This document shows, piece after piece, positions 11,195 through 63,052 of a stretch of DNA of 64,000 nt. Numbering within the stretch: the first letter of the stretch is position 1; each line of letters opens with the position of its first letter. The notes beneath the pieces were generated by a model. The model did no database searches. It was not told where the DNA came from and saw nothing but the letters and a program-made list of their open reading frames with translations. The position numbers and the translations under genes are program-made. Source of the DNA: an uncultured Treponema sp. Its GTDB lineage: Bacteria > Spirochaetota > Spirochaetia > Treponematales > Treponemataceae. The stretch spans positions 1 through 64,000 of the forward strand of contig NZ_CAMHSK010000007.1 in NCBI RefSeq assembly GCF_946187725.1. Reading direction: 5' to 3'.

Positions 11195-12397
11195 CTATTT
11201 TGCTTCGGATTTCTCTACGATTGTGTCAATGATTTCCGGGAAATACCAGTTTAAATTCTTTCTATTAAAGAAGCCGAATTTCTCTTCAAAAGTGTTGTCT
11301 GCTTTCGGGTCGCCGTTATCCCAGAGGCAGGTAACCATTCCGTATTTGTGTGATTCGCCAACGAAATAAGAGAACCATTTTACGCGCTCATCGAGATTGT
11401 TTTTGTTTGTAGCACCATATTCACCGATGATGACAGGAATGCCTTTTGAAACAAAATGCTCGTTAAGCCATGTGAAATTGTATTCAAGCTCTGCGGCATG
11501 TTTTTCTTCAAAGACAGTTGCCCCCGGATTTTCCATTGCAAAGGTGTATGGAGTGTACAAATGAACAGAAACCATAAGTTTTCCCTCTGCAGAATCATTC
11601 GGGAGTTTCCATGATTCATCTGCCTGATAGCTGTTGATTGAAGCTGCAAGGCCGGTAACCATTATGAATCGGTTTGCATTGTTTTTGCCGGATGCACGGA
11701 TTGTATTGACTGCAAGCTGATTAAGTTTGTTGAGATTTGTGGCACCATCCTTACAGACAGTACAGCCCTGATTGTACCACCATTCATGCGAGTGACCGCG
11801 AAGACGAGGTTCATTAAGAACTTCAAAAATCAGATGCTCGTCATAGCCCTTATTGAAAGCGAGTGCAATCTGTGCCCAGACATTCTTAACGAAAAGCATC
11901 GACTCATTGTAATTGAGGGAACTTGGGTAATATCCCTTGCAATGAGGAATAAGGTTTTCACGCTCATAGTTATCGTGATGGTCATTGAGGATTACATAAA
12001 GACCGTCCTCAATCGCCCAGTCAACAATCTGCTTTACCCTCTTCATCCATGCAGAATCAATCGTATAATTTGAATCGACAAAGTGATTTGCCCAGCTGCA
12101 CGGAATTCGGATTGTCTTAAATCCTGCGGCAGCGATTGCATCAATCATCTCTTTTGTAGTATGAGGCTGCCCCCAGCTCAATTCAGAATCAAGGCCGGCA
12201 CAACCATTCGCATCAAGTGTATTTCCAAGGTTCCAGCCGCACTTCATCCTGTCAGCAAGTTCCTGTGCCGTACACTCATTGAACTGAACGGATTTCTTGT
12301 CTTTTACCGCTTTTTTTGCCGAAAAGAGATATTTTTCACCAGCAAAAGCACAGCTCAAATATATAGAAAAAAACAACACAGCAAGACATTTTTTCAT
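11195..12397 (-). CDS. Secreted GH5 endoglucanase (cellulase)
   Basis: I place the start at ATG 12397, preceded by AAGGAG; the open frame extends 16 codons further upstream without a ribosome site. The first 19 residues (MKKCLAVLFFSIYLSCAFA) are a signal peptide cut after AFA. The catalytic domain fills the rest: MKCGWNLGNTLDANG, TIRIPCSWANHF, the acid/base Glu in FEVLNEPRLRG, and the nucleophile Glu in IIGEYGATNK. GH5 enzymes of this type hydrolyse beta-1,4-glucans. There is no carbohydrate-binding module. The divergent neighbour is a glycoside-phosphorylase-like gene, so the pair may handle beta-glucan breakdown. Confidence 0.88.
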   Translation of the reverse strand: MKKCLAVLFFSIYLSCAFAGEKYLFSAKKAVKDKKSVQFNECTAQELADRMKCGWNLGNTLDANGCAGLDSELSWGQPHTTKEMIDAIAAAGFKTIRIPCSWANHFVDSNYTIDSAWMKRVKQIVDWAIEDGLYVILNDHHDNYERENLIPHCKGYYPSSLNYNESMLFVKNVWAQIALAFNKGYDEHLIFEVLNEPRLRGHSHEWWYNQGCTVCKDGATNLNKLNQLAVNTIRASGKNNANRFIMVTGLAASINSYQADESWKLPNDSAEGKLMVSVHLYTPYTFAMENPGATVFEEKHAAELEYNFTWLNEHFVSKGIPVIIGEYGATNKNNLDERVKWFSYFVGESHKYGMVTCLWDNGDPKADNTFEEKFGFFNRKNLNWYFPEIIDTIVEKSEAK

Positions 12398-52962: not shown

Positions 52963-55581
52963 TTATTTTTTCAAAATTACGAATGATTTAGCTGCAACTT
53001 TAGCTGGAACCGATGCGCTTTCGCTCGGTGTTCCGCTTGCAACATCGACCAGCTTGGTGTAGCCGGTTGTGTCAATTGTCTGCTCTGTGTCAGTGGCGTT
53101 GAAGTAGACGAGGAAGTCGCCTGTGGTGTATTTTGTTACGCCCTTTACGCTCTTGTATGTTTCAGCTTCTGCAGTTGTGTTTGCTCCGAATGCAGCAGGA
53201 TTTGCTTTGCGGAGAGCAATCAAGCCTTTGTAGGTGTTGTAGACATCGGCGTAGGTGTCCTTCATGGTTAAGTCAATCTGGTTAATTACATCTGATGAGC
53301 TGTAGCTGTTCTCGTTTCCTTTCTTGGTTCTCAGGAATTCCTGACCACCATTGATGAATGGAGTGCCCTGTGAAAGGAAAAGATATGCTGCGGCAAGTTT
53401 ATCTTCTGCCTTGATAGTTGCAAGACCAGTGCCTGCATCTTTGCCTTTTTCAGTATCATAAGAATTAACTGCGGCAAACAGGTCAATAGCTGCCTTACAT
53501 TCAGTGATTCCAATATAACTCATTGCAAGTTTATCAAAGAGAGTATAATTGTCGTGGCACTCTGCATAATGAAGAGAAAGTTCTGGTTTGCCTGTGTCAT
53601 TTCGATTTGTGCTGGCTCCTTTCAAGCCTTTTTTAATCGCTGCATCAGCAAATTTGCCCTGAACATGACCAAGTGCAAAGCCACCGAATTCTTTTCCTTT
53701 AATTGCATCACGGAATGAATCATCGAAAGCACCGTAACCGATTCCAGAAGTTCCTTCACCAGCTTTAGTTGCACCGTTTACTACAGCAGAACTTCCACCA
53801 GTCCAAGGCTCACCGTAAACCATAACATTCTGGTCGATTTTATAAAGCTCATCATAGATTTCTTTCATTGTCTCGGCTTCCTGACAGCCCATAAGGTCAA
53901 AGCGGAATCCGTTAACATGATAGTCAAGCATCCAATGTTTGAGAGATTCAATTACATAGGTTTTTACGACGCTGTGATTTGTAGCAATTTCATTTCCACA
54001 ACCAGAGCCATTCATGTACTGACCGTCAACGACACGATAGAAATATTCAGGAACTGTGAGGTCATAAAGTGAAGCTACGCCTGTTCCACTAGTGTGATTG
54101 TAAACAACATCCATGTTTACAGCGATACCATTCTCATGAAGTTTACCAATCAATGTTCTGAATTCAAGAACTGCCTGTGTACCATCTTTGTAGTTCTTTG
54201 TGACATATCTTCCTTCCGGAACATTGTAATGATACGGATTGTAGCCCCAGTTATAAGCAGAACTTGCATTCTTTTCTGCATGGTCAAAAGAAGGCAAGAT
54301 TTGAACATGAGTTACGCCCAAATCTTTGAGATGAGCCATAAATTCTTCAGAATTTGCAAGATCAAGGAATTTTCCTGTTGAATCAGTAACAAAAGCTCTA
54401 GACCAGTCACGGACATGCATTTCATAAATGACTGCATCTGAGTAAGATTTTACTTCACTTCCATTGTTGCCAAACGGGTTATAGTATCCGTCCTTTGTTC
54501 CCCATGAACTGTCTTTTGAACCTGTATAAATAGCACTTGCATCTGCATTAATATCAACAAGCTGAGATGCTACAGAATCTGCGCTACATGATTTTGCCCA
54601 AATATCGCAGACATCACTTGTCTTATCAGGATTTGCAATTCTGTACTTATAATATTTGAAGCCTGTAATGTCGACAGAGTCTAATGTCCAAATACCCTTT
54701 GTACCTGCCGTCATATCAACGCAACTGTCTTCGGTTGTAAGTGATGAAGAATCTGCAAACAAAAGCAATTTGACATCAGAAGCAAGCGGTGCCCACATCT
54801 TGAATGAAGCGGTGCTTCCATTCACTGTTACACCAAAATCCTTATCTGTAAGACCATAAACATTGTCAATAACATCACCTGTTATCGGACAAGAAATTGT
54901 CTTATTACCATATGATACGGTATAAGGTGTTTTATCAATATTGCCAGCTTTAAGAATGATTTTTTCAAGAGTTGCACTTTCAACCTCAAGAACATTTCCA
55001 TCGCTGTCTTTGACAGTAAGCTGAGAAACATCGATAGATTCTATTCGGCTGGTGCTGATAGAAATTTCTTTGTCGGAAACAAGGTTTGCGCCCATAATTC
55101 CGAAACTGTCTTCATAAGTCGTGTAATACATTTTTGGATTCGCAAAATTAAAGTAAAATGTGTTGTATTTGAGAAGCTCATCTTTAGGAACGATAACATC
55201 GTTTGTCTGAGGGCTTCCCGCACTGTTTACAAAAAGAATACCAAAATCTGCCGTTGTGTCAAGCTGCATATCGCAGTAACTTCCGTAACTATCTGACTTA
55301 TCAAGAACGAATGTTCCGCCCGGCCATGATTTTGTATCATAGTTTGTATCACCTGAGCTAGCTCTCTTCCATGCCCAAATCTGCCAAGTTTCTGCCGCAG
55401 GCTTGTCTAGAAGATAAATTCTCCAATAACCCTCTGGTACCGGAATAGTTGTTTTAGTATTATCTGACGATGAATCCTTTTTTGATGAGGAGTCATCATC
55501 TCCACTGCTACATGACATGAAGTTGAAGAGCAGCGCCGCAGTTCCAAAAATCATAACGATTTTTTTCATTAATTTTTTCAT
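52963..55581 (-). CDS. Type I pullulanase, lipoprotein (GH13)
   Basis: 872 residues, start ATG 55581 after GGAGG. A signal peptide with lipobox NFMSC is followed by a Ser/Asp/Lys linker. Residues about 50-150 form a CBM41-type starch module (YWRIYLLDKPAAETWQIWAW). Then come a CBM48-like N-domain (FKMWAPLASDVKLLLF) and the GH13 barrel, which has the pullulanase sign YNWGYNPYHYNVPEG. The four conserved regions are NMDVVYNHTS, GFRFDLMGC, MVYGEPWTGG and YAECHDNYTL. It cleaves alpha-1,6 branch points of starch or glycogen, anchored at the cell surface or periplasm. It is the last gene of a starch cluster on the same strand. Confidence 0.93.
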   Translation of the reverse strand: MKKLMKKIVMIFGTAALLFNFMSCSSGDDDSSSKKDSSSDNTKTTIPVPEGYWRIYLLDKPAAETWQIWAWKRASSGDTNYDTKSWPGGTFVLDKSDSYGSYCDMQLDTTADFGILFVNSAGSPQTNDVIVPKDELLKYNTFYFNFANPKMYYTTYEDSFGIMGANLVSDKEISISTSRIESIDVSQLTVKDSDGNVLEVESATLEKIILKAGNIDKTPYTVSYGNKTISCPITGDVIDNVYGLTDKDFGVTVNGSTASFKMWAPLASDVKLLLFADSSSLTTEDSCVDMTAGTKGIWTLDSVDITGFKYYKYRIANPDKTSDVCDIWAKSCSADSVASQLVDINADASAIYTGSKDSSWGTKDGYYNPFGNNGSEVKSYSDAVIYEMHVRDWSRAFVTDSTGKFLDLANSEEFMAHLKDLGVTHVQILPSFDHAEKNASSAYNWGYNPYHYNVPEGRYVTKNYKDGTQAVLEFRTLIGKLHENGIAVNMDVVYNHTSGTGVASLYDLTVPEYFYRVVDGQYMNGSGCGNEIATNHSVVKTYVIESLKHWMLDYHVNGFRFDLMGCQEAETMKEIYDELYKIDQNVMVYGEPWTGGSSAVVNGATKAGEGTSGIGYGAFDDSFRDAIKGKEFGGFALGHVQGKFADAAIKKGLKGASTNRNDTGKPELSLHYAECHDNYTLFDKLAMSYIGITECKAAIDLFAAVNSYDTEKGKDAGTGLATIKAEDKLAAAYLFLSQGTPFINGGQEFLRTKKGNENSYSSSDVINQIDLTMKDTYADVYNTYKGLIALRKANPAAFGANTTAEAETYKSVKGVTKYTTGDFLVYFNATDTEQTIDTTGYTKLVDVASGTPSESASVPAKVAAKSFVILKK

Positions 55582-55644
55582 GTTTCCTCCATAAAACTAA
55601 AATCAAACAAGGGCAGAATCATAAAAATGATTCCGCCACATTAT

Positions 55645-58600
55645 TTACTCAATTACAATCACATTATTTGTTTCATCACAGACAAGCGGTACATCATCAA
55701 CGGAAAGAGTACCACTACCAAACTTGTACCGGTCAGAATCCCCGGCTTTAAGACCGCGCGGACTTCCCATATCGAAATCCCATGTATTGATGTAGAACTT
55801 ATAGCCTGTAATATCGCTCGGATATCCCATTGCCGCTGCAGAAATTTTAATCCAAATCATGCCAGGCTTATCCGCCCATACGCTGCCAATTTCTGGTGCG
55901 TAGCCGGACCAGTCAAGTTTTGCATATTTTTCGATTACAGCACCTTCACTATCCAAATCCTGATACTGTTCAAGAGTTTTGCCGTCCGCATCTTCAAGCT
56001 GTTCCCATGCGACAGTCGGGGTATTTGCTGGAGCAGGAGTTACGGCCTTACCAAAAGTAGAACTGTCTGCACCACTTGAAGAATAGTAAGACTGTCCCCA
56101 ACCGTTGCACTGGAACATATAGTCCCACTTGCCAAACGAATCAGGCAGTTTGTAATTGCTCTTCGGATGATATTCACATCCGTCCGAATCATTGCCATTC
56201 GAAATAAATATATATGGAACAACATGATCGAACTGATTTGAAGTCGGATTCCAGCCATGACTTACGGCACCCATTTTCACACCAAGAAGCACATCGTTTC
56301 CGCTTCGATAAACTTCAACACCCTGAATGTCCAAAGCGCCTTTAAATGGAGCATCGGTCGGTCTCTGAAGGATTCCTTTAGCTACCCCTACTCCATTGTC
56401 ATCGTCTTTTGGATCATCAACACGCTTAATCAAAGTAAACGGTCGCTCAATCGTAAAGCTCTTCTGCTCTGAATAACAGATTACTCCGTCTACAGTCTGA
56501 ATCATCTGAACTGTAATCTTTCCGTTAGAATAAGCCTTTACATCGATATCCTTAGAGAATTGAACATTTGCAGTTGCATTAACTGTCTGTGCAAGTGTAT
56601 AGTCGCCGTTCAATACGATTTTGACATCACCTGAAACTGTCGTTTTACCTTTTACAGTGATGCTGGAACCAGTGACCTTATCTGTTGGAATCTCATCAAC
56701 AGTAATTTCACATCCACTTGCGCCAGCATCAAGGCCTTTTTCAGTAAGGATATAGACAGCACAGCTGTTTGCCGGAACGATAAGTTTTACATTTCCTTTT
56801 TTGCCGTCAGCAGAAGCAACAAAACTTTCTTCGATTTGAGTTCCATCTGCCGGACATACTGAAATTCCTTCATAAGGAACAAGCGTGAATTTATCTCCAA
56901 CAGCGATATTCGCATAGCTTGCGTCAAGAATTTTATCCGTGCTCGCAGTATTCATTACGAAAATTGCTTTATTTCCAATGTCTGCAAGATATTTTTCAGC
57001 ATCTGCAGGGTCTCTTTCACGAACAATATAGGCAAAGATTCCGGCACTATCTGCGGTTTCCTGCAAGACTTTAAGCGTATTGTATCTGAAGACACGATTT
57101 TCCTTTCGCATTTTGTTCAGATTCTGGAAATACTTGTACCAGTCACCATTCGTATCAAATGAATCAGAAGTTTTTGTAGTTCCAGGAGTGTAGAAACTTC
57201 CTTCGAACATACCTTCACGACACTGACCGTCAAATCCCTGCTCGCTTCCATAGTAAACCTGCGGAATTCCTGGAATTGTGTAGATGATATTATAGGCAGC
57301 CTTCATCAACTCCGTGTTGCCCTTCATTGTCTGACCCCATCGGTCAATATCATGGTTGTCAATGAATGTAACAAGCCTGTCAGGATTTGCATAATAACCT
57401 TTTGTATAACGATTATTAAGAACAGTACCGATTGCATTTGTTTTTCCGCCAGAACTGATTGTGTCTGCAAGAGCATAGCGCAACGGGAAGTAAATCATAC
57501 CGTCCATGCGGGCAGTTCCAGAAGAAGACTTCGTGTAGCTTCCGACAATCTTTTCATCCTGACTGAAAGCCTCACCGAAATTAATGAAATCTTTTTTTCC
57601 TTTTGAAAGACCATATTCACGCACACCCATGTTGTTTGCATCAGTGTCGTTTATAAATCCTTCAAAGAAATCCGGTTCGACATAGAGGGCTGTGTCGATT
57701 CGGTAACCGTCGATTCCACATTTATCAATCCAATATCGGAAATAACCACGCAGCAAATTTCTTACGACTTCATTCTCCGTTACCATGTCGTCCAGATTCG
57801 AAGAAGAATGTGTGTACATATTGTACTGATTTGTATAATCACTGATTTCGGTGTTGAAATGATAGAATGAGTTATTCTGCCATTCGTCAAGAGTGATATC
57901 ACGCACATCATTCAAAGCCCACGGAAGCTGCTCCGGATGGCTGAACGGAATTGATTTTGGCTCAAAGTAAAATTCTGAAGAAGGAATATCCCATTTTTCT
58001 TCAGTAACATTCCATTTCTCTGCGGTGACATCTTTTTTTATCTGTTGATAATCGCCAAGATGATTAACGACAATATCCTGAATTACATAAAGGCCAAGGT
58101 CGTGAGCCTCTTTTACAAATCTTTGATACTGTGCAAGCGTTCCCATATGGCTGTCTACTTTTGTAAAATCACTTGCCCAATAACCGTGATAACCATGATA
58201 ATTTGATTCCGCAATCTGACATTTTACAGGCGGCGTCATCCAGATTGCAGTGAATCCCAAATCCTTTATATAGGAAAGTTTCTGTCTGATTCCTTCGATA
58301 TCTCCACCGTTGTAACCAGAAGCGGGTTGTCCTTCCAGCACATCCCGTTCGTTATATGGGTTTCCGTTCGGATCAGTAAGGCCTTCAACATGGTCATTTG
58401 TTGTATCGCCATTGAAAAAACGGTCTGTAAGAATGAAATAAATTGTCTGATCCTGCCAGTTATCACTTTCTGGATTTACAGGAGTCCATGAACCATCAAA
58501 ATCGGTTGAGCGGTCAAGGTCAAAATCAAAGCTTGTCATGGCATAGCGTTTCGTTCCGTCAGGGAATTTTGCCATTGCACGAACAATACACTGTTCTCCA

Positions 58601-58992
58601 ACTTCAAATGCGCCGTTGTATTTTGTAGATTCTTCAGTTGGCTTCGACTTTGCAACAGAATTTTTCCATGCAGTTTCGTTCCAATTTCCATTTGAATCCA
58701 ACGCAGCAGTTAAAACTGTATAAAAGATTTCACTGGCACCTTCACAGGAAATAGCGACATTCTGTTTCGTCTTATAAAATCCACCGACAGGACTGAAAAC
58801 CGGAACCGTAGGCTCAGCAGTTTTAGGTGGATTTGATGGCTCTGGCTCAGGTTCGGGTTTAGGTGTTTCCTGTGCATTGTCGTTTCCGCCAGAGTCACTG
58901 TCAGAACAAGAAATCAATCCCATGCCAGAAAATGACATAAGCAATGCCATGGCAGCAACAAAGGCTATCGCCTTACTTTTTGTTTTTTTCAT
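55645..58992 (-). CDS. Large alpha-amylase-family lipoprotein with C-terminal glucodextranase-type domain
   Basis: 1115 residues with lipobox GLISC and a Pro/Glu linker. A chitobiase-like module (FSPVGGFYKTKQNVAISCEG) is followed by the GH13 barrel, about residues 170-690: FFNGDTTNDH, GYHGYWASDF, DIVVNHLGDY, GYRIDTALYVEPDF (nucleophile Asp), FGEAFSQDEK (acid Glu) and FIDNHDIDRW. An Ig-like module (about 755-860) and a C-terminal DOMON-like glucodextranase domain (DDPKDDDNGVGV..., CNGWGQSYYSS) follow. It likely hydrolyses alpha-1,4 glucans. Start ATG 58992 follows AGGAGA. It precedes the pullulanase by 63 bases, where an imperfect hairpin lies (55611-55637). Confidence 0.9.
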   Translation of the reverse strand: MKKTKSKAIAFVAAMALLMSFSGMGLISCSDSDSGGNDNAQETPKPEPEPEPSNPPKTAEPTVPVFSPVGGFYKTKQNVAISCEGASEIFYTVLTAALDSNGNWNETAWKNSVAKSKPTEESTKYNGAFEVGEQCIVRAMAKFPDGTKRYAMTSFDFDLDRSTDFDGSWTPVNPESDNWQDQTIYFILTDRFFNGDTTNDHVEGLTDPNGNPYNERDVLEGQPASGYNGGDIEGIRQKLSYIKDLGFTAIWMTPPVKCQIAESNYHGYHGYWASDFTKVDSHMGTLAQYQRFVKEAHDLGLYVIQDIVVNHLGDYQQIKKDVTAEKWNVTEEKWDIPSSEFYFEPKSIPFSHPEQLPWALNDVRDITLDEWQNNSFYHFNTEISDYTNQYNMYTHSSSNLDDMVTENEVVRNLLRGYFRYWIDKCGIDGYRIDTALYVEPDFFEGFINDTDANNMGVREYGLSKGKKDFINFGEAFSQDEKIVGSYTKSSSGTARMDGMIYFPLRYALADTISSGGKTNAIGTVLNNRYTKGYYANPDRLVTFIDNHDIDRWGQTMKGNTELMKAAYNIIYTIPGIPQVYYGSEQGFDGQCREGMFEGSFYTPGTTKTSDSFDTNGDWYKYFQNLNKMRKENRVFRYNTLKVLQETADSAGIFAYIVRERDPADAEKYLADIGNKAIFVMNTASTDKILDASYANIAVGDKFTLVPYEGISVCPADGTQIEESFVASADGKKGNVKLIVPANSCAVYILTEKGLDAGASGCEITVDEIPTDKVTGSSITVKGKTTVSGDVKIVLNGDYTLAQTVNATANVQFSKDIDVKAYSNGKITVQMIQTVDGVICYSEQKSFTIERPFTLIKRVDDPKDDDNGVGVAKGILQRPTDAPFKGALDIQGVEVYRSGNDVLLGVKMGAVSHGWNPTSNQFDHVVPYIFISNGNDSDGCEYHPKSNYKLPDSFGKWDYMFQCNGWGQSYYSSSGADSSTFGKAVTPAPANTPTVAWEQLEDADGKTLEQYQDLDSEGAVIEKYAKLDWSGYAPEIGSVWADKPGMIWIKISAAAMGYPSDITGYKFYINTWDFDMGSPRGLKAGDSDRYKFGSGTLSVDDVPLVCDETNNVIVIE

Positions 58993-59099: not shown

Positions 59100-59131
59100 A
59101 AAAAGGGCTAGGCTTTCGCCCAGCCCTTTTC
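59100..59131 (-). terminator. Terminator of the starch-binding lipoprotein gene
   Basis: On the minus strand AAAAGGGCTGGGC pairs with GCCTAGCCCTTTT around GAAA, followed by TC. It separates the barrel/lipoprotein pair from the amylase gene downstream. Confidence 0.75.
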
Positions 59132-59156: not shown

Positions 59157-60425
59157 TTATTCAACAAATGCAGTTGTTGCAGAATTAGCTGTGAGATCTA
59201 CTGTACAAAGATAAACACCAGCTTTATCTACTGTGAAACTAATTGGGAAGTTAGCTCCGCTAACTTTAATTTCTCCGTTTGTAGAAGCAATATCTCCTGC
59301 AGCATCAGGTTCACCCCAGTATCCACAAGCTTCGTATGAAACTGTATCACCAGTGTTCATTGCCTTTGCAGTGAAGATAGTGATTTCTGCTGTACCTTTG
59401 TCAGTGATTTCAGCATGGTACAAATCTTCGTATGATTTGCTTCCACCCCATGCTGTAGTCCAACCAGATGTCCATCCATCAAAACTACCACCGAGAACAG
59501 CAATCTGTCCTTCAGCGTCAGCAATGCCCTTTACAAGAACTTTAAGGGTTACAGCAGTAACTTCTTCAACCTTGAATGAAACTTCGCCCTCTGGAGTTGT
59601 AAGAACAGAAATCTTGTATGGGAAGCCAACTTTCATTCCTGTAATTTTATTGTTAGGACCACCGTCTTTTACTGTTTTTACATAATCTGTAGTAGTTCCA
59701 ACAGCAAATGTTCCTTCAACATATTTTGTAGCCCAGCCTTTAGTACCGATACCAAATTCAATTTCTGCTGCACCAGCATTAAATGAATAAGTATAAGTAA
59801 GCTCAGCAGTTCTGTTGTTTCTTGTAGGATTTACAAGAAGTGTGTCTACACTTGCAGCCCAAGTTGCATTACCACCAATGTTTTCATTTCCAAGAATGAA
59901 GTATCCGTCAAGGTAGAATGGCTCAGGTCCAGATGAACCAGCACCAGATTCAACTTCAACTTTTACAGTAAGATATGTAGCATCAGGTGTGATTGTGAGA
60001 GTAACTTTATCGCCTTCCTGAGTTCCAGAAATAAAACAACAGTCAGCAGACTGTCCCTGATAAACTTTCTGCTCCATTCCATCACTTTCACTGAATGTAT
60101 TTGCAGTATCACCCAGGCTTTTTGGCTGTGCCAAGCGATATGCTGTATTCCATGAACCATCACCACATTCAATAACAGCAAAGGCATCACCTTTAACGCC
60201 ACCTCTTTCTTGAGTTCCTGTTGCCGTAAAGCTTACTGTATAAGTACCGTCTCCGTTTGCAGTAAGAGGAATATCAGAAGCATCATCCCAGCCAGATTCC
60301 TTTGCTGAACCACGAATTCCGTAACCAGTAAGGTCAATCAATTCTGTATCATGCAAGTCGCCAGAACAGCCGATAAGACCGAGAGCAAGCGTACCTGCTG
60401 CAAGTAATGAAATTATTTTCTTCAT
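59157..60425 (-). CDS. Surface lipoprotein with several beta-sandwich modules, SusE/SusF-like
   Basis: 422 residues with a clear lipobox (LGLIGC). Three beta-rich modules, each of about 100-125 residues, follow: DTELIDLTGYGIRGSAKESG, EPFYLDGYFILGNENIGGNA, and TLKVLVKGIADAEGQIAVLG with GGSFDGWTSGWTT. The aromatic-rich sandwiches (GWDD, SWNTAYR, GWATKY, GWTSGW) recall outer-membrane starch-binding SusE/SusF modules and CBM-like folds. There is no enzyme motif. It follows the CBM/barrel gene by 23 bases, so the two are an operon. Starch binding is inferred from the neighbours. ATG 60425 follows AAGGAG. Confidence 0.7.
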   Translation of the reverse strand: MKKIISLLAAGTLALGLIGCSGDLHDTELIDLTGYGIRGSAKESGWDDASDIPLTANGDGTYTVSFTATGTQERGGVKGDAFAVIECGDGSWNTAYRLAQPKSLGDTANTFSESDGMEQKVYQGQSADCCFISGTQEGDKVTLTITPDATYLTVKVEVESGAGSSGPEPFYLDGYFILGNENIGGNATWAASVDTLLVNPTRNNRTAELTYTYSFNAGAAEIEFGIGTKGWATKYVEGTFAVGTTTDYVKTVKDGGPNNKITGMKVGFPYKISVLTTPEGEVSFKVEEVTAVTLKVLVKGIADAEGQIAVLGGSFDGWTSGWTTAWGGSKSYEDLYHAEITDKGTAEITIFTAKAMNTGDTVSYEACGYWGEPDAAGDIASTNGEIKVSGANFPISFTVDKAGVYLCTVDLTANSATTAFVE

Positions 60426-60448: not shown

Positions 60449-62755
60449 TTAGAATTCCCAGCGGATTCCGCCACGAATTGCTGCATAACCATCGTAATAG
60501 TCAACAGCATCAATACCACCAAGCTGTTTGTCCCATCGGTCGCTTACATTAGCTCCGTTAAGGGCAAGCTGATCCTGTCCGTCACCAAATTTCTTATACG
60601 GATCCATGTTGTATACGAACTGTGCGTAAAGGATTGGAGACTTGATTCGTTTAATCTGTTTAGATACACCAAGTGCGAAACCAAGCATATTGTTCAAATC
60701 TTTATTGTATCCGTCTGCTGCATCAGTGCTCTTTACAGTCTTGAGACCAAACGCTGCGCTTACTTTGAAGTCCATTGGAAGTGTTGCAGAAGCAACCAAA
60801 GTATTGAACATACGAGTATCATTTGAATTGTCCAAACCATAGTAAAGGTTCAAGTTCTTGATTACATCAGAAACATCGCTGTATTCAAGTGTGATACCTG
60901 CATTTTTGAAGAGGAATGCACTGTCAGATGCAGCATACTTGTTCATTTCTCCATCATCATCGCCATCATACTTGTATGCATCGTATTTGAATCCTGCATC
61001 CAAAGTAATGCTGATATCATCAGTGAGATAGTAAGCAGCAGTTGGGTTAATCTTAAACTCTGCACCGCTCTTGATACCGAACAAAGGCATCATCTCGCTA
61101 CCACATCGGCTTGCATACCAACCTTTTCCATTGTTCCAAACAGCCTCTTTAGACCAGCCTGTAACTACATCTGAATCACCTTCAAGATGTTTCAAAGGAA
61201 GAGCTGCATTTGCATCAAGTGCGAGATAAAGGGCATCTTCCATAAGGTTTGCATAAGCAGAAAGTCCGATGTTCTGGCTGTTAAGAACGCCAAGTGTCTC
61301 AGAAAGGTCGAATGTACCATCGTCATGATTTTCGCGGAGGAAGAGCATTGAAGCCTCAGCACCACGCAAACGATAATCAACAGTTACACCCCAAGCCTGT
61401 TCAGCAGCATCGTAAATCAATTTAGCTTCAGCAGCCATATTGTTGATGCTGTTATCGCCAGAGCGATAGAATACATCTGTAGAATAACCCATGTAATCAG
61501 CAATAGCATTGCCCAAGTCATCACTTGTCTTCTGGTGTGTAGCCATAAGGCCCTGAGCAGCAAATGTGATTGAACCAGCATCTGCAAGATTAAGTTTTTC
61601 TTTCAAACCGAAAACGAAATCTCGTTCAACAGAATCTTCAAACATTACATCGCCGTCGAACATACCGTTAGACTGGAAATCTACAGTAAGACCCAAGTCC
61701 TCGAATTCAGAACCGAGCCAACCGATATATCCATATTTTGTACCTTTGCGGTCTGCACTCTTGTTTGGAACAAAACCTGCATCAAGTTTGATACCTTTGT
61801 CAGCCAAAAGCTCCTGAGCTTTAATACCAGTGCTGAATGAAGCGAATCCACCAACATGCTGATAGCCAGCATCCCAGTTACCATCGATTGTTGTCCAAAG
61901 GATTTTTGCTCGTTTGTCCTGTTTTGCATAGTTGAAACCTGTGCTGTAGTTAACCCAAGGTGTCTCAAAACCGAACTTCAAGTGGCCGAGATACGGATTT
62001 GTTCCCGGTCCCTGTGCAGTTGAATTGCTATTGTCAGTAGATTTTCCGAACCATGAGAGAGGGTTTGAAAGAAGACCGCTTGCACTCTGGCGGAATGATT
62101 TTGTTACTGTGCCGTCAGCTGCTTTTTTATAGAGAGAAATTGGGCTGTCTTTGCTATCTGGATGAAGAGCATCATCAAGCTCAGTTTCTGCAACAGCAAG
62201 CTCTACATATACAGGCATTTCCGGTGTGATATTACCAGCGAATTTAGCATAGCTCTTTGCACCAACAGTAACTTCATCCAAGTCCATGCCTTTCTTAGTT
62301 GCGTCAGAAGCACCCTGTGTAAGGAACTTAGCCTGTGAACCAAGCATAGTCCATGTCAAGAATTTAATATTTGCTCTTTTAGCGTTGGAATCGTTTCCGC
62401 CGCCAACCAAAGTATCTAGCTCACCCATTGAGTTCTTTCCACCAAAACCGTCATCGACGAAATCCGGTGCTTTCAAGTCGGTTGTCCATGAACCGTCTAC
62501 GATAAACTTGTATTTTACAGTTGTACCTTTTGGGAACACTTTGGTGAGTGTGAATCCTTTCTCACCCTTTTCCATTGGTATTGCTCCCTCTTGCCAGTTT
62601 GTGAAGTCACCGGCGATGACAACCTCTGTTGCACGAGGGTTACCATAGAAGAATGTTGCTTCTACTGAACCGTCGTCCAGTTTTTTGGCAGTGATGTCAG
62701 CGAACAGTGCTGAGCAGACAGCCAAGACCGAGATGAAAGACAGTAATTTTTTCAT
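60449..62755 (-). CDS. Outer-membrane beta-barrel protein with N-terminal glycogen-binding (CBM48/AMPK-type) domain
   Basis: 768 residues from ATG 62755 (GGAGG six bases upstream; an in-frame ATG at 62767 overlaps that ribosome site). Signal peptide MKKLLSFISVLAVCSALFA is followed by an AMPK/CBM48 domain, about residues 20-105: EVVIAGDFTNWQEGAIPMEK, FPKGTTVKYKFIVDGSWTTD. The rest is a large barrel of alternating strands (YSTGFNYAKQDKRAKILWTT, AAFGLKTVKSTDAADGYNKD), and it ends in GGIRWEF with the terminal Phe expected for barrel assembly. Glycogen-binding domains are usually cytoplasmic enzyme parts, so this fusion is unusual. A maltodextrin porin or starch anchor is inferred. Confidence 0.85.
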   Translation of the reverse strand: MKKLLSFISVLAVCSALFADITAKKLDDGSVEATFFYGNPRATEVVIAGDFTNWQEGAIPMEKGEKGFTLTKVFPKGTTVKYKFIVDGSWTTDLKAPDFVDDGFGGKNSMGELDTLVGGGNDSNAKRANIKFLTWTMLGSQAKFLTQGASDATKKGMDLDEVTVGAKSYAKFAGNITPEMPVYVELAVAETELDDALHPDSKDSPISLYKKAADGTVTKSFRQSASGLLSNPLSWFGKSTDNSNSTAQGPGTNPYLGHLKFGFETPWVNYSTGFNYAKQDKRAKILWTTIDGNWDAGYQHVGGFASFSTGIKAQELLADKGIKLDAGFVPNKSADRKGTKYGYIGWLGSEFEDLGLTVDFQSNGMFDGDVMFEDSVERDFVFGLKEKLNLADAGSITFAAQGLMATHQKTSDDLGNAIADYMGYSTDVFYRSGDNSINNMAAEAKLIYDAAEQAWGVTVDYRLRGAEASMLFLRENHDDGTFDLSETLGVLNSQNIGLSAYANLMEDALYLALDANAALPLKHLEGDSDVVTGWSKEAVWNNGKGWYASRCGSEMMPLFGIKSGAEFKINPTAAYYLTDDISITLDAGFKYDAYKYDGDDDGEMNKYAASDSAFLFKNAGITLEYSDVSDVIKNLNLYYGLDNSNDTRMFNTLVASATLPMDFKVSAAFGLKTVKSTDAADGYNKDLNNMLGFALGVSKQIKRIKSPILYAQFVYNMDPYKKFGDGQDQLALNGANVSDRWDKQLGGIDAVDYYDGYAAIRGGIRWEF

Positions 62756-62820
62756 CTTTTCCTCCATTTTTTTATTCGCGCTTACCTTTAAGCCATGCCT
62801 CTTTGCTAGACAGAACCGCC

Positions 62821-62903: not shown

Positions 62904-62933
62904 TTGACACGGAGGGCAATTTTTTTATATAAT
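62904..62933 (+). promoter_or_regulatory. Promoter of tRNA-Val
   Basis: TTGACA (62904-62909), an 18-base spacer and TATAAT (62928-62933). The predicted start at about 62940 coincides with the first base of the leader helix described at 62941. Confidence 0.75.
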
Positions 62934-62940
62934 AGATTTC

Positions 62941-63052
62941 AACATCAGCACTGTCTGCGGGGTTAGCTCAGTTGGTTAGAGCATCACGTTGACATCGTGG
63001 GGGTCAGTAGTTCGAATCTACTATTCCGCAAAGAGTGCTGATGTTTTTTTTA
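62941..63052 (+). terminator. Leader/trailer helix enclosing tRNA-Val, with terminal T-run
   Basis: AACATCAGCACT (62941-62952) is exactly complementary to AGTGCTGATGTT (63034-63045), which is followed by TTTTTTT. The 12-bp helix has the whole tRNA as its loop, and it probably serves both as terminator stem and as the processing stalk. Confidence 0.75.
62957..63030 (+). tRNA. tRNA-Val(GAC)
   Basis: A 74-base cloverleaf. The acceptor stem is GCGGGGT/ATTCCGC with discriminator A at 63030; the D arm is GCTC-AGTTGGTTA-GAGC; the anticodon arm is TCACG-TTGACAT-CGTGG with anticodon GAC; the T arm is AGTAG-TTCGAAT-CTACT. The CCA end is not encoded. It reads GUC and GUU valine codons. Confidence 0.95.

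Follow-up and report, generated by a model that had tools for sequence, protein, structure and literature searches.

Spirochaetes are common degraders of fibre and starch in the rumen and in termite guts. Since no TonB/SusCD-type outer-membrane importer could be detected in the genome of the uncultured Treponema sp. analysed here, the route by which this rumen organism takes up glycans is an open question. The stretch of DNA under study (the window; 64,000 nucleotides, positions 1 to 64,000 of contig NZ_CAMHSK010000007.1) carries a gene whose product joins a CBM48-type domain to a predicted outer-membrane barrel, followed by genes for three lipoproteins (Table 1). Is this protein an outer-membrane channel for starch fragments, and is its family confined to starch? 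A preliminary description of the window had called it a possible starch porin, and had suggested a spirochaete counterpart of the Sus system built on a different transporter.

Table 1. Features of the porin locus, with positions in the window
Feature	Position	Strand	Basis
CBM48-barrel protein, predicted outer-membrane glycan porin, 768 aa	60449..62755	(-)	ORF, AMPK1_CBM Pfam match, full-length Spirochaetia homologues
Sec signal peptide, residues 1-19 (MKKLLSFISVLAVCSALFA)	62699..62755	(-)	Read from translation
AMPK/CBM48-type glycogen-binding domain, about residues 30-115	62411..62668	(-)	Pfam, AlphaFold model, Foldseek, VIA, conservation
Predicted beta-barrel region, residues 126-768	60452..62380	(-)	Amphipathic strands; no PDB or Pfam match
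C-terminal beta-signal RGGIRWEF	60452..60475	(-)	Motif frequency in family vs other ORFs
Partner lipoprotein, 422 aa, 23 nt downstream of porin gene	59157..60425	(-)	Lipobox, pairing, homology to relatives' partners
LHD signature, residues 24-26, shortly after lipidated Cys20	60348..60356	(-)	LH[DN] enrichment in partners
Intrinsic-terminator-like hairpin and U-tract, right after partner gene	59100..59131	(-)	dG, z; relatives
Lipoprotein GH13 alpha-amylase, 1115 aa, with Glucodextran_C module	55645..58992	(-)	Pfam
Hairpin between amylase and pullulanase genes	55612..55637	(-)	dG -16.3 kcal/mol, z -5.33
Lipoprotein type-I pullulanase-like enzyme, 872 aa (PUD, CBM48, GH13)	52963..55581	(-)	Pfam, TIGR02104

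An exported AMPK/CBM48-type domain

The open reading frame of the porin encodes 768 amino acids when read from an inner ATG and 772 when read from position 62767. Its translation starts with a signal peptide that ends in SALFA, ahead of DIT. Residues 41 to 102 match the Pfam family AMPK1_CBM (E=1.5e-11; 44.8 bits against a gathering cut-off of 26.8) and CBM_48 is matched as well (E=3.9e-5). With the signal peptide and a Pfam match above the gathering cut-off, the exported domain named in the preliminary description was borne out. The AMPK1_CBM match recurs in 14 of 15 family members.

An AlphaFold model of the domain alone, built from an 11-sequence alignment, had a pLDDT of 81. The top Foldseek match of this model was the glycogen-binding domain of AMPK beta1 (1z0m_B; TM 0.88 by target, rmsd 1.4), and a VIA comparison with 1z0m gave a Z of 11.9 with an rmsd of 1.5 over 81 residues. 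The predicted model and both comparisons thus agree on a beta-sandwich fold. The glucan contacts of AMPK beta1, which we take to be W100, K126, W133 and N150, correspond to W54, K83, W90 and N108 of the porin; the first three were matched by phmmer alignment and N108 by eye. Across the 43 family members with this domain, W54, K83 and N108 are invariant and position 90 is always tryptophan or tyrosine. The absence of carbohydrate-contact aromatics, which would have refuted the starch-porin proposal, was therefore not observed. Judged from sequence matches and the predicted fold, the porin holds a real AMPK/CBM48 glycogen-binding domain; that it binds alpha-glucan is inferred, and there are no binding data.

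Two variants of the domain were seen in relatives. Three genomes encode an exported CBM48 protein of 119 to 127 amino acids without a barrel, among similar neighbour genes (L041:5170-5553, L122:9533-9916 and L123:9797-10156). At another locus (L102:8310-10655 and 11411-11869, genome G214) a shortened copy of the N-terminal CBM part of the CBM-barrel gene, identical at its start, precedes that gene.

A sigma-70 scan of the region returned 30 matches against 26.5 in shuffled sequence, which is no excess. A perfect consensus promoter (TTGACA, 18 nt, TATAAT) lies 5' of a tRNA-Val(GAC) gene (window 62904-63031, plus strand). This gene and its promoter diverge from the porin gene and are ordinary.

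A predicted outer-membrane barrel of an unclassified family

The remainder of the protein has the general marks of an outer-membrane barrel, namely a signal peptide ahead of it, amphipathic strands and a C-terminal beta-signal. The last residues are RGGIRWEF, and the pattern x-G-x-x-[WFYI]-x-[FLWYI]-end occurs in 42 of 48 family members but in only 6 of 659 other ORFs at their loci. Amphipathic strand-like segments, scored on single sequences, reached 3.41 per 100 amino acids, compared with 2.0 in the sequences' own shuffles and 2.13 in GH13 enzymes from those loci. Values of about 2.6 were obtained for E. coli LamB, OmpC and FadL, and E. coli TrmA, a non-barrel control, scores 2.62, so that the single-sequence score is weak on its own. 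When the segments were averaged over the alignment, 30 were found, against 17.1 +/- 2.8 (maximum 25 in 500) with the columns permuted. A full-length AlphaFold model, for which only a four-sequence alignment was available, had a pLDDT of 27 and says nothing either way on the barrel; the assignment of residues 126 to 768 as an outer-membrane beta-barrel is therefore a prediction from sequence statistics, with strong signs and no structure. Of the "barrel ending in Phe" described earlier, the C-terminal phenylalanine stands and the barrel has this statistical support only.

A search for a known porin by sequence found none. Residues 126 to 768 had no Pfam match among the 46 members scanned, the barrel region had no NCBIfam match, and PDB sequences gave no match to the barrel profile even at E=10. 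By these tests the barrel family is previously unclassified and is matched by no described porin family. The protein could still be an ordinary maltoporin of the LamB type, or another known porin, that acquired a CBM and diverged beyond recognition. Maltose-type ABC genes next to barrel loci do recall the LamB/MalEFG arrangement, but with the PDB result and no match to LamB, OprB, FadL or any other porin Pfam family in the 46 members we regard this origin as very improbable, while a shared fold is not excluded.

A partner lipoprotein and lipoprotein starch enzymes

In all 50 sampled loci the gene directly after the barrel gene shares its strand, and the gap is usually no more than 30 nt. A lipobox was recognised in 46 of these 50 partners, and in at least one other (L115) a lipobox seems to have been missed. 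The partners range from about 140 to more than 800 amino acids. In the window the lipobox is LIGC and the mature part begins C-S-G-D-L-H-D. Of the 46 recognised partners, 21 have an L-H-[DN] motif within 16 residues of the lipidated cysteine; among 89 other lipoproteins from these loci, 1 has it (Fisher p=5.8e-11; the loci are not phylogenetically independent). This one is a neighbour at an amylase locus or, in L116, the partner lipoprotein that belongs to a galactan barrel.

The window's partner is homologous to the partner lipoproteins of relatives, some of which carry starch modules (CBM26 at E=1.3e-10 and CBM_20 at E=1e-5 among ten lipoproteins of related loci). No starch-module match above the Pfam cut-off was found in the window's own partner. 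This protein had been described as a "SusE-like lipoprotein". That it is a lipoprotein holds; homology to SusE was rejected, as the SusE and SusF_SusE profiles had no match at E<=1 either in it or in the ten lipoproteins of related loci.

A strong terminator-like hairpin follows the partner gene (dG -32.8 kcal/mol for a 67-nt stretch, z -7.55), and similar hairpins follow it in L006, L007, L008, L098, L111 and L124. This points to joint production of barrel and lipoprotein as a pair, with the hydrolases expressed by read-through or from promoters of their own.

The lipoprotein amylase and lipoprotein pullulanase that the preliminary description placed downstream on the same strand were confirmed by Pfam and by the best match of the second enzyme, which is type I pullulanase TIGR02104 (E=5e-136, slightly below the NCBI cut-off). 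GH13 genes at E<1e-20 occur in 28 of 43 sampled loci, compared with about 9% of 20-kb stretches expected by chance (about 16 GH13 genes per 3.27 Mb in this genome), although the sampled loci are not phylogenetically independent. Of the 15 loci without GH13 at the strict cut-off, several are truncated by contig ends, and L093, L095 and L096 hold GH13 enzymes with weaker matches. Maltose-type solute-binding proteins and permeases adjoin barrel loci in T. ruminis and others, and the T. ruminis lipoprotein amylase has a SusG C-terminal domain. In the genome studied here, contig 24 encodes a maltose-type transporter, a lipoprotein amylase, a pullulanase-like protein and a neopullulanase-like protein.

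Both GH13 lipoproteins of the window have acidic stretches just after the lipidated cysteine, for example CSSGDDDSSS. Such stretches recall Bacteroidota lipoprotein export signals.

Distribution of the family and a branch without CBM48

Full-length relatives are present across many Treponema and also occur in several further families and orders of Spirochaetia, and the T. ruminis relative is about 78-80% identical to the porin. Three CBM-barrels are encoded in the present genome, two on contig 7 (60 kb and 91 kb) and one on contig 2 (134 kb). Of 200 Treponema genomes, 30 show a match at E<=1e-20, which makes the barrel an accessory trait. Beyond the class, most further matches within the phylum are to the CBM alone and membership there is uncertain. 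A single-sequence scan of about 85,000 species found relatives of full or nearly full length in spirochaetes alone, and elsewhere matches to the CBM only, which does not show that the family is restricted to Spirochaetota. No homologues were found in viral contigs.

Four loci from other families of the order and class (L038, L039, L040 and L092) have the tandem order barrel-lipoprotein-barrel-lipoprotein. The two barrels of each pair fall on separate branches of the tree, which suggests an old duplication; the two may possibly form a hetero-oligomer. Two different CBM-barrel contigs (L124:129-1292 and L125:129-1292, genome G414) share the same start of a neighbouring ATPase-like ORF, which suggests repeats or recombination among copies.

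Barrels without a CBM, which form one branch of the barrel tree, are homologous to that of the window (hhalign probability 99.9, E=4.9e-31, 512 columns). They lie in Treponema galactan operons with a LacI regulator, a solute-binding protein, two permeases, a GH35 beta-galactosidase, a GH53 endo-galactanase and one or more small lipoproteins that carry GLHNQ. Pfam confirmed GH53 in L116 and L117 and GH35 in L116. The present genome has such an operon on contig 8 at about 22.2-34.7 kb (L138:2157-14664), with a solute-binding protein, two permeases, GH35, GH53, a CBM-less barrel, a GLHNQ lipoprotein and further lipoproteins; its GH35 and GH53 genes were called by resemblance to L116. It follows that the CBM is a module which a general glycan barrel has gained or lost. 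As far as these homologies go, the barrel family is not limited to starch.

A profile of the mature parts of galactan-locus partners retrieved the starch-locus partners L095 (1e-33) and L109, L006 and L096 (6e-6 to 2.4e-5); the partners of the two branches are therefore related. In the small galactan-locus partners of L140, L141 and L142, a G-[DN]-F-N-x-W stretch resembles the CBM48 core. A profile of the small partners weakly matches the CBM of many barrels in register, but hhalign gives a probability of only 2.5. That these partners themselves have a CBM48-like fold is only suggested by their sequences, and hhalign is not convincing.

Absence of TonB and Sus components

The absence of SusC, SusD and TonB genes, noted earlier for the window, extends to the whole genome, which is 98% complete: the Plug, SusD_RagB and TonB_C domains had 0 matches each. 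The same Plug search gave matches in control genomes, and no Plug match was found in the porin itself at E<=1. Many relatives that carry the barrel family do have Plug proteins, which makes the absence a feature of this genome. The lack of all three domains is the ground for supposing that the barrel need not be energised by TonB; the TonB independence of the whole family is inferred, chiefly from this genome. The proposed Sus counterpart with a different transporter is supported by gene clusters conserved across several Spirochaetia families, together with the missing SusC, SusD and TonB and the homologous CBM-less barrel in galactan operons.

The lack of any SusC, SusD or TonB candidate in this genome also bears on whether the protein is a channel at all. 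It might instead organise the starch enzymes, either as a structural or surface-scaffold barrel or as a large beta protein with no barrel, and the missing direct evidence for a pore and the uninformative full-length model leave room for this. A scaffold would not, however, account well for the outer-membrane beta-signal and amphipathic strands, or for the way in which oligosaccharide ABC importers for two substrates recur beside the family, and we consider it quite unlikely.

A model for glycan uptake

We propose that the porin is a maltodextrin outer-membrane channel, belongs to an undescribed spirochaete family of glycan porins, and works in a pair with its lipoprotein in surface hydrolysis (probability roughly 0.6). 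The grounds for this reading come from sequence analysis: the domain with its predicted fold and conserved contact residues, the order and pairing of the genes, the homologous galactan branch, and a genome without TonB and Sus components. Insertion of the barrel, the pore, transport, the substrate, the periplasmic position of the CBM and the contact between barrel and lipoprotein are inferred.

In such a model, lipoprotein amylases and pullulanases would cleave starch on the cell surface. The partner lipoprotein, which has starch-binding modules in several relatives, may gather glucan above the barrel mouth on the outer face, and oligosaccharides would cross the barrel without TonB, by facilitated diffusion. 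Placed in the lumen or at the periplasmic mouth, the N-terminal CBM48 could grip the entering alpha-glucan chain as a trap or plug and give import its direction, and a maltose-type ABC importer would then take the glucan into the cytoplasm. For galactan, the barrel would operate without a CBM.

Ordinary outer-membrane barrels have both ends in the periplasm. Since the CBM48 is N-terminal to a barrel with a C-terminal beta-signal, a place in the periplasm or the pore is more likely for it than a role as starch grip on the surface; this topology is inferred. The main rival places the domain on the cell surface, by autotransporter-like display or as a starch adhesin, with the barrel mainly an anchor. 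An N-terminal domain before a C-terminal barrel is an autotransporter layout too, and starch binding outside would suit the nearby lipoprotein amylases. The barrel region, at about 570-640 amino acids, is nevertheless large for a display barrel, the Autotransporter beta-domain profile had no match at E<=1, and homologous barrels stand without any passenger in galactan operons. Surface display thus seems unlikely, and we retain the channel with an inward-facing CBM48.

A broader proposal, to which we lean only slightly, is that Spirochaetota own a general TonB-independent glycan-import module parallel to SusCD. Its putative parts would be an unclassified barrel and, obligately paired with it, a lipoprotein that often bears LH[DN]. 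For starch the barrel would have a CBM48 that acts as trap or plug, for galactan it would have no CBM, and other versions perhaps exist. The barrel family probably lets these bacteria take in pieces of starch and, in its sister version, plant galactan.

Comparison with known systems

No earlier report of such a porin was found in the open-access literature; subscription papers and preprints were outside the scope of the search. Glycan-uptake loci made of an outer-membrane transporter and a lipoprotein are already known as a kind, whereas the family of this transporter, its fusion to a CBM and a setting free of TonB appear to be new.

Other outer-membrane proteins of spirochaetes, mostly beta-barrels, include the pore families MSP, T-Por, OmpL1, P66 and P13, which are covered in a survey of 76 families (PMC4827864), and the PopA superfamily, which includes T. 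denticola TDE_2508 (PMC12228718). In the available portions of those two papers no carbohydrate-binding domain or link to glycan operons is noted for them (PMC4827864, PMC12228718). There was no Pfam match between the porin family and the known spirochaete pore families. The AMPK beta glycogen-binding domain and CBM48 have their fold and aligned contact residues in common with the porin domain, but the porin's copy is exported and fused to a predicted outer-membrane barrel.

The LamB-MalEFGK system of E. coli likewise has a presumed passive pore that supplies a maltose-type ABC importer. The spirochaete porin differs in having no LamB match, its own CBM48, surface lipoprotein enzymes and a partner lipoprotein. 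A binding domain in place of TonB could give import its direction, and a recognisable barrel-lipoprotein pair would allow glycan-uptake loci to be predicted in Spirochaetota, as SusCD pairs do in Bacteroidota.

The SusCD systems of Bacteroidota likewise combine an outer-membrane barrel, an adjacent lipoprotein and surface lipoprotein amylases. Unlike SusC, the spirochaete barrel has no TonB plug and is unrelated by the family tests run, this genome has neither SusD nor TonB, and the inner membrane is served by an ABC importer. On the sequence comparisons made here, the best reading is that the barrel and its lipoprotein form a TonB-independent pair for glycan uptake, functionally like SusCD or LamB, and unrelated to either.
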